Shown here: positions 1,227 through 8,367 of the stretch, in pieces
Layout of the letters: every line of letters begins with the position of its first letter
Position numbering within the stretch: the first letter of the stretch is position 1
Origin: Gardnerella vaginalis
GTDB taxonomy: Bacteria; Actinomycetota; Actinomycetes; Actinomycetales; Bifidobacteriaceae
Length of the DNA: 64,000 bases
Direction: 5' to 3'
Assembly: GCF_001546455.1 (NCBI RefSeq)
Contig: NZ_KQ956813.1
Location: forward strand, 124,001 to 188,000
Translations under genes and position numbers: made by a program
The notes under the pieces: model-generated
What the model saw: the letters and a program-made list of their open reading frames with translations, nothing else
What the model was told of the DNA's origin: nothing
Database searches by the model: none

Positions 1227-1328
1227 ATTATGCTCCATGACTCTAAGGCTTATTCGTAATCAATTTTATATCCTAGTGAATCATTGAGCATTTTATATTT
1301 GACTATGTTAAACTCTAATTCCTATTTT

Positions 1329-1421: not shown

Positions 1422-1451
1422 TAGACATACCCCCCCCCGTACATGTAAAAT
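1422..1451 (+). promoter_or_regulatory. promoter with a 9-C homopolymer in its spacer, ahead of the surface-protein operon
   Basis: A -35 like TAGACA (1422-1427) and a -10 like TAAAAT (1446-1451) are 18 bases apart. The spacer contains nine consecutive C (1430-1438). An in-frame TGA at 1478-1480 shows the tract is not in the coding region of the gene at 1535. Slipped-strand changes of one C would move the spacer to 17 or 19 and alter promoter strength. The boxes are one mismatch each from consensus. Confidence 0.6.
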
Positions 1452-2289: not shown

Positions 2290-4077
2290 ATGAAGAAATA
2301 TCGCGCATTTATAGCATTATTATTAGCATCAATACTTGTTACACCGTCGATAGCATATTGCGTACCAGAAACCGTAAAACCTGCTGATAATAAAGTAGAC
2401 GATGACTACTATTGGGCCAAGCTAAGTGATTATACTCCATCAAATTCATCATTTAAAATCAACAAGTACCCAACAGGTTTACTTAAACCAGAAAACAGTA
2501 AAAACAATTGGTTTACACCACCAACTGACAGCGCAGATAGTAGCTATACAACTACTGGAAACGTTTCAGGCCTCCCAGTAACAAATAACATTTCATCCAC
2601 TGATTACTGGAAAACTAATGACGTATGTTCACCTAAGAATGCTGGCTCTTCTTTAAATACATTGGAAGAGTACAAAAGTAAAAATATTGACTTAGTTTGT
2701 GCAGCTGATTCCCCAAACCCAAACATCTATGGAGATTTAAGCATAGGCAATGATACTGGGAACAAAAGTATACCTGAATTTAAAGATGGAAGTAAAGTTA
2801 ATCTTAATTTTTCTCTTAATATGAGAACATTTAGAGAAAGCTATAATTCATCTCTGTTACTTGAAAAACAACCAATTTGGGTAGATAGCAATACTAAGAT
2901 TAGTGGAACTAACCATTCTGATACTGGAGAAGAAGCATTAGTGAATTGGTATTTTGCCAATGATGCTGAACTTATGTTTGTACTTAATCTTCCAAAAGAA
3001 GCGAAAGTAGATAATTCAACAAAATATTCAATTACTGGACTTGGTGAAAAAAAGTTTAATAATCCTGTTGCAACATCTACGAGTAACAATGATGGAACTA
3101 CTACACTTACAATCAAAGTAAGAAAGAAAGATGCAACTCCAATAACTTACAAAGATCTTACTATTGCAATTAATAGTATTGAAAATGTTTCTCTTAAAAT
3201 TGAAAACGTTACGTTATCACGCAAAGATAGTAATGACAAACCGGCTCGCATCACAGGATACGCGTACGGAATGCTTGATATGCTTGCTAGCCCTAACAAA
3301 GATAGTGTCGTAAAACCTTCCGCTAATCAAAATACAACAGGAAATAATAATAATCAGGTTTTCATCGCTCGCACAAATTATCTTTTTGCAGCCAAGCAAA
3401 GCGACGAAGGTAGAGATGCTAATGCCGAAAAGGGCAAGGATAGCAAACCTACAAAACCAAATCTGATTACGTTTAGTTTTAAGGTAAAGAAACCAGAAAC
3501 TTATAGCGTAACGTATAGCTTCAAATCTGGAACTAGTGAAAAATCACTTCCTGCAGAAGTAACAGCTTTGCTTCCTGCAAGCACATCTGGGCATAATAAT
3601 GGAGTAAACATTACGCCTGCGAAACCTTCAAAAACTTCTGTTGATATTAAGGATAAAGACGGCAAAAAGCTAGGAACATGGAATTTCGCTGGATGGAGCC
3701 CAACATCAGCTATTATAAATAATGCTGATGTTTCCTTCGTTGGCACATGGAATTTCACTCCAGTAGAAGAACCAAATCCAGGTTCTAATACTCCACCAAT
3801 TCCGGACCATCCTCACGATCCAGAGACGCCAGATAAACCAGATACACCGGTAACTCCAAAGAATCCAAATAAACCACAGGAAGAATTACAAACGAAACAA
3901 GTATCACCTGAACCTAATACAGGCGCAGCACAGACAGAAAAAAGCGAAGATCAGCAAATTCTTGCAAAAACTGGTGTAAACACTGTATTTATTGCAATAT
4001 TTGCAATATTTATGTTATTACTAGCTGCATCATTGCGAAAAATTCTTCCACGTCAACAAATAAAACATCTACGATAA
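2290..4077 (+). CDS. cell-wall-anchored surface protein with SHIRT-like domain and LAKTG sorting signal
   Basis: About 595 aa: a signal peptide (MKKYRAFIALLL..., cut near residue 24), a long Ser/Thr/Asn-rich beta region, one SHIRT-like domain at about 400-492 (VTYSFKSGT...LPAEVTALLP followed by WNFAGW), a proline-rich wall-spanning stretch at about 492-537, then LAKTG at 558-562, a hydrophobic helix and a basic tail. This is a sortase substrate; LAxTG is the class E type motif of actinobacteria. A GTG at 2278 is in frame, but ATG 2290 is preferred because AGAGGTGAG (2274-2282) sits just ahead as its ribosome-binding site. A strong terminator follows. Known SHIRT proteins are adhesins that project from the surface, sometimes with variable repeat number; here I see only one copy. 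Ligand unknown. Confidence 0.85.
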   Translation: MKKYRAFIALLLASILVTPSIAYCVPETVKPADNKVDDDYYWAKLSDYTPSNSSFKINKYPTGLLKPENSKNNWFTPPTDSADSSYTTTGNVSGLPVTNNISSTDYWKTNDVCSPKNAGSSLNTLEEYKSKNIDLVCAADSPNPNIYGDLSIGNDTGNKSIPEFKDGSKVNLNFSLNMRTFRESYNSSLLLEKQPIWVDSNTKISGTNHSDTGEEALVNWYFANDAELMFVLNLPKEAKVDNSTKYSITGLGEKKFNNPVATSTSNNDGTTTLTIKVRKKDATPITYKDLTIAINSIENVSLKIENVTLSRKDSNDKPARITGYAYGMLDMLASPNKDSVVKPSANQNTTGNNNNQVFIARTNYLFAAKQSDEGRDANAEKGKDSKPTKPNLITFSFKVKKPETYSVTYSFKSGTSEKSLPAEVTALLPASTSGHNNGVNITPAKPSKTSVDIKDKDGKKLGTWNFAGWSPTSAIINNADVSFVGTWNFTPVEEPNPGSNTPPIPDHPHDPETPDKPDTPVTPKNPNKPQEELQTKQVSPEPNTGAAQTEKSEDQQILAKTGVNTVFIAIFAIFMLLLAASLRKILPRQQIKHLR

Positions 4078-5838: not shown

Positions 5839-8367
5839 CTAAACGTGCGACACGCTGTAATCAAAGAAAACAACTTCGCCCGTATCTTGTGTGGAGTCCA
5901 AATCAACAATTCCAGTAATAGCCCAATTACGGTCTCCGTCCGAGTCGTCAATAATCTGCCGAACTTTCCACGAATGCTCACTCTTCTCTAGCGAATCGTC
6001 CAAAATAAACAAGTCGCCACCACGAGCTTTGGCATCAATACCAACATATTCATGCTCATCGTAATAGTCGTCGAGCACATCATTCCACTCGTGAACGCCG
6101 TAGCCCCAAGCTTTATCAAGCTCTCCTAAAGTATCCGCATCTTCCAAATCCATAAGCTGCACGCGGCGGAACATTGCGTTTCGAATCAACACAACAAGTC
6201 CACGACGATCCTCAACTACAGACTCAGAAGTTCCAGGCGCGGCCATAGTTACAGCGCTAGCTTCAGCGTCCGACCCTCCAGCACTCTCCCACTCGTCAAC
6301 AAGACTAGAATCAATAGAGCGCACAACAAGGCGAAGCCAAGAAATAATATCACGCAATTCTTCGTTAAGCATATCTTCTGGCACAGTGCGAGCAAGCGAA
6401 CGGTAGGCATCCGAAAGGTAACGAAGAAGCGTTCCCTCACTTCTAGCAATGCCATAGCGCGAAATGTAGCCAGTAAAATCGGAAGCAGTTTCAACCATGT
6501 CTCGAAGCACAGATTTAGGCTTTAGCCAGTAGTCGTTTGCCCACGGAACATCTTTGCGATATTGCGCAAAAGCAGGAGTTAGCAAATCTTCCAAAGGCTT
6601 AGGATAGCTAACTTCCGCCAAGCGTTCCATGCGCTCTTCGTAATCAATACCATCATCCTTCATGCCAGCCATTGCAGCATCGCGAGCCTTGCGTTCTTGA
6701 GCGCGCAGAACAGGCTTAGGGTCATCCAAAGTTGCTTCAACCATAGAAATTACGTCAAGAGCGTAGCTTTCAGATTCTGGGTCTAGAAGTTCCAAAGCTG
6801 CGAGCAAGAATGGAGAAAGCGGCTGATCTAGCGCAAAACCTTCAGGCATAGCAACATCAAGATCATAATCACAAGAACCGTCTGAAAGCTCTCTGCATTC
6901 AATGACTTGAGTATCAAGCAAAGTTTGGAAAATATCGTCGCAACGCTCAAGCAATTTTTCTTTATCTTGCGGCTTTTGTGCGCTATCTTCAATAAGTTTT
7001 TCAACGCGTGCTCTAGCATCCCCACCTTGCGTAACTTCGTTCAAAATCATTGAGTGTGTTACAACCATGTGAGGATTCAAAGTTTCTGGAGCGCTTTCAA
7101 TAAGCTTAGTAAACGTTGGCTCGCCCCAAACTACAAAGCCTTCTGGAGCTTTCTTACGCTTAACTTTTTTAAGCTTTTTAGGATCATTTCCAGCTTTTGC
7201 AACAGCGCGCGCGTTTTCAATCTCGAACTCTGGAGCCTCTGCAACTACTAAGCCCTCAGTATCGAATCCCATTCTGCCTGCACGTCCTGCAATTTGATGA
7301 AACTCGCGAGCGCGAAGCTTTCTACTACGATTTCCATCAAATTTTGTAAGAGCTGTAAGCACAACCGAGTGAATTGGCACGTTAATACCAACGCCAAGAG
7401 TGTCTGTTCCGCAAATAACTGGCAGCAATCCCTGCTGTGCGAGCTGTTCGACGAGCCTACGGTATCGCGGAAGCATACCAGCATGATGCACGCCAACTCC
7501 TGTGCGCAGTAGTCTTTGCAAAATTTTGCCGAAGCCTGTAGTAAATTTAGTACCTTTAATTGCTTGAGCAATTTTGTCTCGCTGCTCTTTGCTAGAAACT
7601 CCAGTACTTGCGAGCGCTTGAGCTGTTTCTAGAGCTGCATCTTGCGAAAAATGAACTACGTAAATCGGCGTTAAACCCTTGTTAAATAAGAGTTCTACGG
7701 TTGTAGCAAGTGGCTTATCTGTGTACTCGTATTCGAGTGGGATTGGCCTTGGCGCGTCTGCAATAATATCAACACTTCTTTTTGTTGATTTTTCTAAGCG
7801 TTCCGCAATATCCGTTACGTCTCCAAGAGTTGCGCTCATAAGCAAAAATTGCGTGTTTGCAAGAGTAAGTAGCGGAACTTGCCAAGCCCATCCTCGCTCT
7901 GGGTCTCCATAGTAGTGGAATTCGTCCATTGCAACGCAATCAACTTTTGCGTTTGCACCTTCGCGCAGAGCTTGATTTGCTAAGATTTCCGCCGTGCAGC
8001 AGATTATTGGAGCATCCGCGTTAATATGCGAGTCGCCAGTAATCATGCCTACGTTGTCTCGCCCAAAAATCGCAACTAAATCGAAGAATTTTTCGGATAC
8101 AAGTGCTTTGATTGGCGCAGTGTAGTAGGAGCGTCTGCCTGTGGCGAGTGCCGCAAAATGCATGCCGAGGGCGACTAGTGATTTTCCAGAACCTGTTGGA
8201 GTGTTTAAGACTACGTGGTCTCCTGCAAGCAAATCCATAACGGATTCTTCTTGATGCGGCCACAAATCTACATGCTTATTAGTCTTAACCCAATCAACAA
8301 ATGCTTGAAAAATCTCGTCTTCGCTAGCATGATGCAAATCAAGAGCTAACTCGCCTAATCCAGCCAT
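5839..8367 (-). CDS. DEAD/DEAH-box helicase with C-terminal DUF3516 domain
   Basis: 842-aa superfamily 2 RNA/DNA helicase of the actinobacterial Ski2-like type. The N-terminal helicase core shows a Q-motif region (LWPHQEESV), motif I GSGKS (59-63), motif II DEFH (148-151), motif III SAT (about 178) and motif VI HQIAGRAGRMG (about 355). The remaining ~400 residues form the acidic DUF3516 region, ending close to the C-terminus. The true substrate is unknown; a role in RNA processing or repair is inferred from the fold. It is the last gene of a minus-strand group with the pseudouridine synthase and cmk-der genes (31-base gap to cmk-der). No frameshift or missing motif was seen. Confidence 0.9.
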   Translation of the reverse strand: MAGLGELALDLHHASEDEIFQAFVDWVKTNKHVDLWPHQEESVMDLLAGDHVVLNTPTGSGKSLVALGMHFAALATGRRSYYTAPIKALVSEKFFDLVAIFGRDNVGMITGDSHINADAPIICCTAEILANQALREGANAKVDCVAMDEFHYYGDPERGWAWQVPLLTLANTQFLLMSATLGDVTDIAERLEKSTKRSVDIIADAPRPIPLEYEYTDKPLATTVELLFNKGLTPIYVVHFSQDAALETAQALASTGVSSKEQRDKIAQAIKGTKFTTGFGKILQRLLRTGVGVHHAGMLPRYRRLVEQLAQQGLLPVICGTDTLGVGINVPIHSVVLTALTKFDGNRSRKLRAREFHQIAGRAGRMGFDTEGLVVAEAPEFEIENARAVAKAGNDPKKLKKVKRKKAPEGFVVWGEPTFTKLIESAPETLNPHMVVTHSMILNEVTQGGDARARVEKLIEDSAQKPQDKEKLLERCDDIFQTLLDTQVIECRELSDGSCDYDLDVAMPEGFALDQPLSPFLLAALELLDPESESYALDVISMVEATLDDPKPVLRAQERKARDAAMAGMKDDGIDYEERMERLAEVSYPKPLEDLLTPAFAQYRKDVPWANDYWLKPKSVLRDMVETASDFTGYISRYGIARSEGTLLRYLSDAYRSLARTVPEDMLNEELRDIISWLRLVVRSIDSSLVDEWESAGGSDAEASAVTMAAPGTSESVVEDRRGLVVLIRNAMFRRVQLMDLEDADTLGELDKAWGYGVHEWNDVLDDYYDEHEYVGIDAKARGGDLFILDDSLEKSEHSWKVRQIIDDSDGDRNWAITGIVDLDSTQDTGEVVFFDYSVSHV

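Follow-up and report, generated by a model that had tools for sequence, protein, structure and literature searches.

Does the run of nine cytosines ahead of a two-gene surface-protein operon in Gardnerella vaginalis act as a length-variable switch of transcription? The run lies in the window, i.e. the whole 64-kb stretch of DNA analysed here, which belongs to a genome of 1.49 Mb in 25 contigs. A sequence-only reading had placed it inside the 18-base spacer between a TAGACA -35 box and a TAAAAT -10 box and proposed that slippage would alter the spacer length and thereby expression, as known from Neisseria. Four elements of the upstream region are at issue:

1299-1328, + strand: rival tract-free promoter TTGACT-18-TATTTT (9 of 12 matches)
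1422-1427, + strand: candidate -35 box TAGACA, with GACATA at 1424-1429 as an alternative register (sequence reading, scan and box test)
1430-1438, + strand: C9 tract, the proposed slippage site in the promoter spacer (sequence reading, shuffles and run counts)
1446-1451, + strand: candidate -10 box TAAAAT (sequence reading, scan and box test)

The C9 tract and its flanking boxes

The placement of the tract was borne out by reading the sequence, in which TAGACA, TA (1428-1429), C9, GTACATG (1439-1445) and TAAAAT follow one another with a spacer of 18, and by a mechanical scan, which recovered the same pair of boxes with 10 of 12 matches. The C9 tract is an extreme outlier among the G/C runs of the window, which have lengths of 1-5 apart from this single 9, and dinucleotide shuffles gave an expectation of 0.05 runs of at least C8 per 64 kb. 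Taken alone, the two boxes are evidence of little weight, because the scan found 10 promoter-like sites in 1.6 kb versus 6.1 ± 3.0 expected. When the flanks of the tract were shuffled, boxes straddling C9 exceeded chance on the sense strand only (p = 0.01 for spacers of 16-18 and 0.035-0.037 for spacers of 15-21, versus 0.28-0.58 on the other strand). The distance from the tract to the ATG at 1535 is 96 nt. A translational switch by frameshift was rejected, since the tract lies outside the reading frame and is followed by an in-frame stop at 1478, between the tract and the ATG. An Rfam search of 1100-1700 matched no family. Separately, a near-perfect palindrome (AATGCAATTG/CAATTGTATT) at 1449-1462 of the window spans the predicted transcript start and is a possible regulator site.

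The operon might be transcribed from the tract-free promoter at 1299-1328, in which case the C tract would belong to the 5′ leader and its length would change little, or only the properties of that leader. The tract-free promoter equals the tract promoter in its score over the intergenic region (7.4 versus 7.3) and sits just past the hairpin that follows yhbY; however, it explains neither the persistence of C9 at a surface operon nor why tracts throughout the genus lie in spacers, as described below, and conservation of its TTGACT box does not extend to the copy of the hairpin element in genome G124. We regard this origin of the transcript as unlikely. Alternatively, C9 could be variable and act through a regulator site spanning the tract, or through DNA shape. 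TTGCAT (1415-1420) and ATGCAA (1450-1455) indeed face each other across the tract, an inverted repeat (1408-1420/1450-1462) is 77% complementary, and at meningococcal nadA a repeat works through the spacing of regulator sites (PMC2791445). Short imperfect repeats occur by chance in A+T-rich DNA, however, and searching turned up neither a regulator nor conservation for the repeat at 1408-1420/1450-1462, so that action by this route is judged quite improbable.

A surface-protein operon in an accessory insert

Downstream of the boxes, and at the left edge of the insert that carries them, the following features were located:

1230-1291, + strand: hairpin after yhbY (ATGCTCCATGACTC / GAATCATTGAGCAT), an inverted repeat and probable end-of-transcript element, at the left edge of the insert
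1524-1528, + strand: ribosome-binding site AAGGA, 6 nt ahead of the ATG at 1535 (sequence reading)
1535-2281, + strand: first gene of the operon, for a secreted protein of 248 aa belonging to no known family (signal peptide by eye)
2290-4077, + strand: gene of a 595-aa surface protein with signal peptide, SHIRT domain and LAKTG signal (Pfam PF18655, E = 1.6e-22)

The two genes had been read as those of a secreted protein and of an LAKTG-anchored SHIRT protein, and both assignments stood, on the signal peptide seen by eye for the former and on the PF18655 match and an ILAKTG close to the C-terminus for the latter. The secreted protein had no match in a Pfam search, and its predicted fold is of low confidence (mean pLDDT 40.7). 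In the second gene, which begins nine nt beyond the first, the SHIRT domain occupies nt 3496-3759 and the LAKTG sortase signal nt 3961-3975, and the protein matches the SHIRT domains of PDB entries 7avh, 7avj and 7avk (best chain E = 6.6e-34). With signal peptides, a SHIRT domain and LAKTG, the operon thus encodes what is expected of surface-exposed products. The two genes are a conserved pair: both are also adjacent in G121, another species of the genus, where the secreted protein is 40% and the SHIRT protein 27% identical.

The operon together with its promoter is accessory DNA inserted at a site of variable content, since rarA directly follows yhbY with nothing between in Gardnerella piotii and G122, and ∼5.5 kb of different cargo fills the yhbY-rarA interval in G009. 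The hairpin after yhbY has 14-nt arms that are 86% complementary and a fold of -12.6 kcal/mol, with a weak z of -1.4. Its element, ATGCTCCATGA.TC...GA.TCATGGAGCAT, is found 3′ of yhbY in the window, in G124 and, as a variant, in G009, and also beside rarA in G124 (window 1230-1291; L180, L191, L181, L091); it marks the edges of the accessory site between yhbY and rarA. None of the 11 other Gardnerella genomes searched carried the operon; the only homologues found were distant ones, in G121, in G134 and, as partial matches, in G132. The C9 tract appears specific to the lineage of the window, because the homologous loci in these three genomes had no G/C run of at least 6 in the stretches examined.

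G/C tracts in Gardnerella genomes

The sequence-only reading did not cover that C9 is one of about 19 G/C tracts, of 8-15 bases, in the window's genome and is of the rarer polarity. This count was made by pattern search and from stretches of sequence, the listed runs being merged by hand and then re-read. In each of eleven further Gardnerella genomes, 7-24 such runs of 8 or more G/C were counted; the genomes nearest to that of the window, among them G. piotii UGent 18.01 (G085) as the nearest named match, show 78-80% DNA identity over cbiQ-yhbY. The tract-linked genes of the window's genome encode mostly secreted or sortase-anchored proteins, including ones with LPRTG, LPMTG, LPNTG and LPGTG ends and with Rib, FIVAR, G5/LRR, pilin D1 and InlB-type repeats. 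In one of them, an LPRTG surface protein (L035), two C10 tracts (G000:C8:5840-5849 and 6086-6095), one upstream and one within the reading frame, possibly form a double switch.

We aligned the flanks of 128 tracts from seven Gardnerella genomes on the tract and assigned the nearest gene by open reading frame, as a proxy for genes. Among the clear intergenic tracts, the gene lay on the G strand in 54 cases and on the C strand in 15, so C9, whose sense strand carries C, belongs to the smaller class. In the G-strand class the three bases 3′ of the G run are T (94%), A (87%) and T (81%), i.e. a -10 box abuts the run, and TTGAnn stands 8-9 nt ahead of it. Two layouts recur, TTGAnn-N8/9-Gn-TATnnT on the G strand and TTGATA-Cn-N9-TATnnT on the C strand. 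Tracts of the same polarity as C9 include TTGATA-C8-17-TATAAT at L045 of the window's own genome (p ∼ 0.003) and TTGATA-Cn-N9-TAT/TAC at L092 of G009 and L152 of G066; no flank family common to C9 and these same-polarity tracts was found (best flank identity 0.48). The boxes in the window follow neither recurrent layout and are therefore a one-off: its sense strand carries C, and the -10 box is 7 nt from the tract, unlike in the G-strand cassette. One promoter cassette, TTGACT-N9-G9..11-TATGTTAATA, was seen 17 times upstream of open reading frames across seven genomes, with no more than four copies in any of them (L079, L080 and L086 of G009; L097, L101, L109 and L113 of G085; L116, L129 and L134 of G122; others), and has the look of a promoter that was copied from one locus to another. 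In a different arrangement, C10 directly precedes an AGGAG ribosome-binding site at L034 (G000:C6:18650-18659) and at L149 of G066, conserved in two species and followed by an open reading frame that, judged by eye, is similar to a NUDIX hydrolase; there the tract may influence translation instead of a promoter.

Assembly gaps start at or near C/G tracts at L033, L040, L043, L044, L137, L138, L157 and L174, and tract lengths in draft genomes may therefore be truncated or inexact. This lends something to the notion that C9 does not vary or is neutral, being a relic or an artefact of assembly with no regulatory role, since its C count may be inexact, and homologous operons in other Bifidobacteriaceae do lack the tract. 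Such neutrality is nevertheless highly improbable in our view, given that the 19 tracts of the genome lie mostly at surface genes, that its relatives are rich in tracts, that boxes are enriched on the sense strand, and that length variation has been published within the genus. Length also varies among related tracts of different species or copies, e.g. 9/12/13, 11/13 and 9/10/15.

Placement of tracts in sense-strand promoter spacers

For each tract, the best straddling pair of -35 and -10 boxes was scored with TTGACA/TATAAT weights and spacers of 15-21, and compared with shuffled flanks; the weights were our choice, and the literature searched contained no mapped Gardnerella promoter. In the intergenic G-strand class, the share of tracts with p < 0.05 was 51% for the sense strand and 0% for the opposite one, versus 4% for coding tracts. 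With one value per tract family, p < 0.1 was obtained in 11 of 26 families on the sense strand and in 0 of 26 on the other. Thus, Gardnerella tracts really lie in sense-strand promoter spacers, and this 128-tract test, together with the sense-strand p of 0.01-0.04 for C9 itself, upheld the promoter-spacer position that had been claimed for the tract. As a promoter mark, ATA before a C run proved too general, since 82% of intragenic tracts likewise carry a T just 3′ of the G run; TA...T after the G run does separate intergenic from intragenic tracts (48% versus 4%).

C9 might also be part of a promoter that reads leftward from the G strand and yields an antisense transcript over yhbY, the rightward boxes then being accidental. 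Most Gardnerella tracts are of the G-strand kind, a TAT comes right after G9, the G strand at C9 reads TTGCAT before and TATGTC after the run, and ACATA-Cn-GT is a recurrent motif of the largest tract family. Against this stand a spacer of 20, a -10 box that lacks its final T, the straddling p of 0.28-0.58, and the genes themselves, none lying to the left and a surface operon lying 96 nt to the right; we consider such a promoter very improbable.

Sigma70-type promoters usually have a spacer optimum of 17. Among the supported G-strand pairs, the spacer was 19 in 18 of 30, two above this optimum, so most genes of the class would have been in a weak state when sequenced, if the assembled lengths are right. 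The spacer in the window is 18, and C8 would give 17.

Probable transcriptional phase variation by spacer slippage

Since tracts sit in sense-strand spacers and C9 itself passes the test, transcriptional phase variation like that of Neisseria fetA is the best reading of the locus, and we judge C9 a probable switch of such a promoter. Replication slippage would add or remove C residues in the tract, and the C count would set the distance from TAGACA to TAAAAT (17 for C8, 18 for C9, 19 for C10). The change in spacing would raise or lower initiation ∼7 nt after 1451, if the promoter is used as we infer, and the levels of the secreted protein and of the SHIRT/LAKTG protein would shift together.

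The Neisseria comparison made at the outset finds support in fetA of N. gonorrhoeae, where poly-C between the -10 and -35 alters expression (PMC5320596). In fetA, as in meningococcal porA with its poly-G, a C or G run lies between the two boxes of a surface-protein gene, which is also the arrangement at C9, whose nine bases exceed the about eight expected of this type, and run length sets the box spacing as proposed here. The Neisseria cases differ in that bacterium and gene are unrelated and that length variation and expression were measured there; for C9 they are predicted.

Gardnerella genomes are rich in G/C tracts of 8 or more bases, ∼70% of which lie within 300 bp upstream of open reading frames, often at genes of LPXTG/Rib/FIVAR/InlB-type surface proteins, and one tract went from 9 to 10 among colonies from one streak (Garcia et al. 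2024, PMC11287997). C9 resembles these tracts in genus, in having at least 8 G/C and in its place upstream of surface genes, and at 96 nt it falls within their 300-bp limit. Promoter boxes lay outside the analysis of PMC11287997, in which the word ‘promoter’ appears once, in the reference list. Its sole Sanger-verified tract is a coding one, because the Sanger primers match locus L130 of G122 exactly, around a G11 inside an open reading frame, and this intragenic position counts against the promoter-switch reading of C9. Apart from this, the published forward primer TTCGACCAAGAATCACCCAG lies within an interspersed repeat, of which G000, G009, G085 and G122 have 4-18 copies and eight other Gardnerella genomes none.

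Bifidobacterium breve, of the same family as Gardnerella, controls its pili, a sortase-dependent surface structure, by slippage in a G run (PMC9187656); that tract differs from C9 in being coding, and the same paper touches on spacer tracts only briefly, as an unpublished observation. The 595-aa protein shares the SHIRT domain and sortase signal with the ‘periscope’ proteins, unlike which it has one SHIRT copy only and a secreted partner of no known family. The mechanism of spacer slippage and the variation of Gardnerella tracts are therefore known and the window locus is a new example, while the genus-wide placement in sense-strand spacers appears unreported in the open-access literature searched.

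Meaning for Gardnerella

On a broader reading, to which we give an even chance, Gardnerella would have a genus-wide set of promoters with spacers made up mostly of a G/C run, in at least two layouts and some copied as a cassette (TTGACT-N9-Gn-TATGTT, 17 members), with the window operon as one unit; each cell would produce its adhesins in a random combination, and the deposited genomes would mostly hold the weak state with spacer 19. With the window operon, a two-gene SHIRT surface module at the yhbY-rarA accessory site joins the list of candidate slippage-prone loci. Gardnerella has a central place in bacterial vaginosis, and a molecular cause is lacking for its colony variants and for the heterogeneity of its surface. 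If many of its surface genes have slippage-prone spacers, tract lengths in routine sequence data, those of clinical samples among them, could reveal the expression state of each gene.
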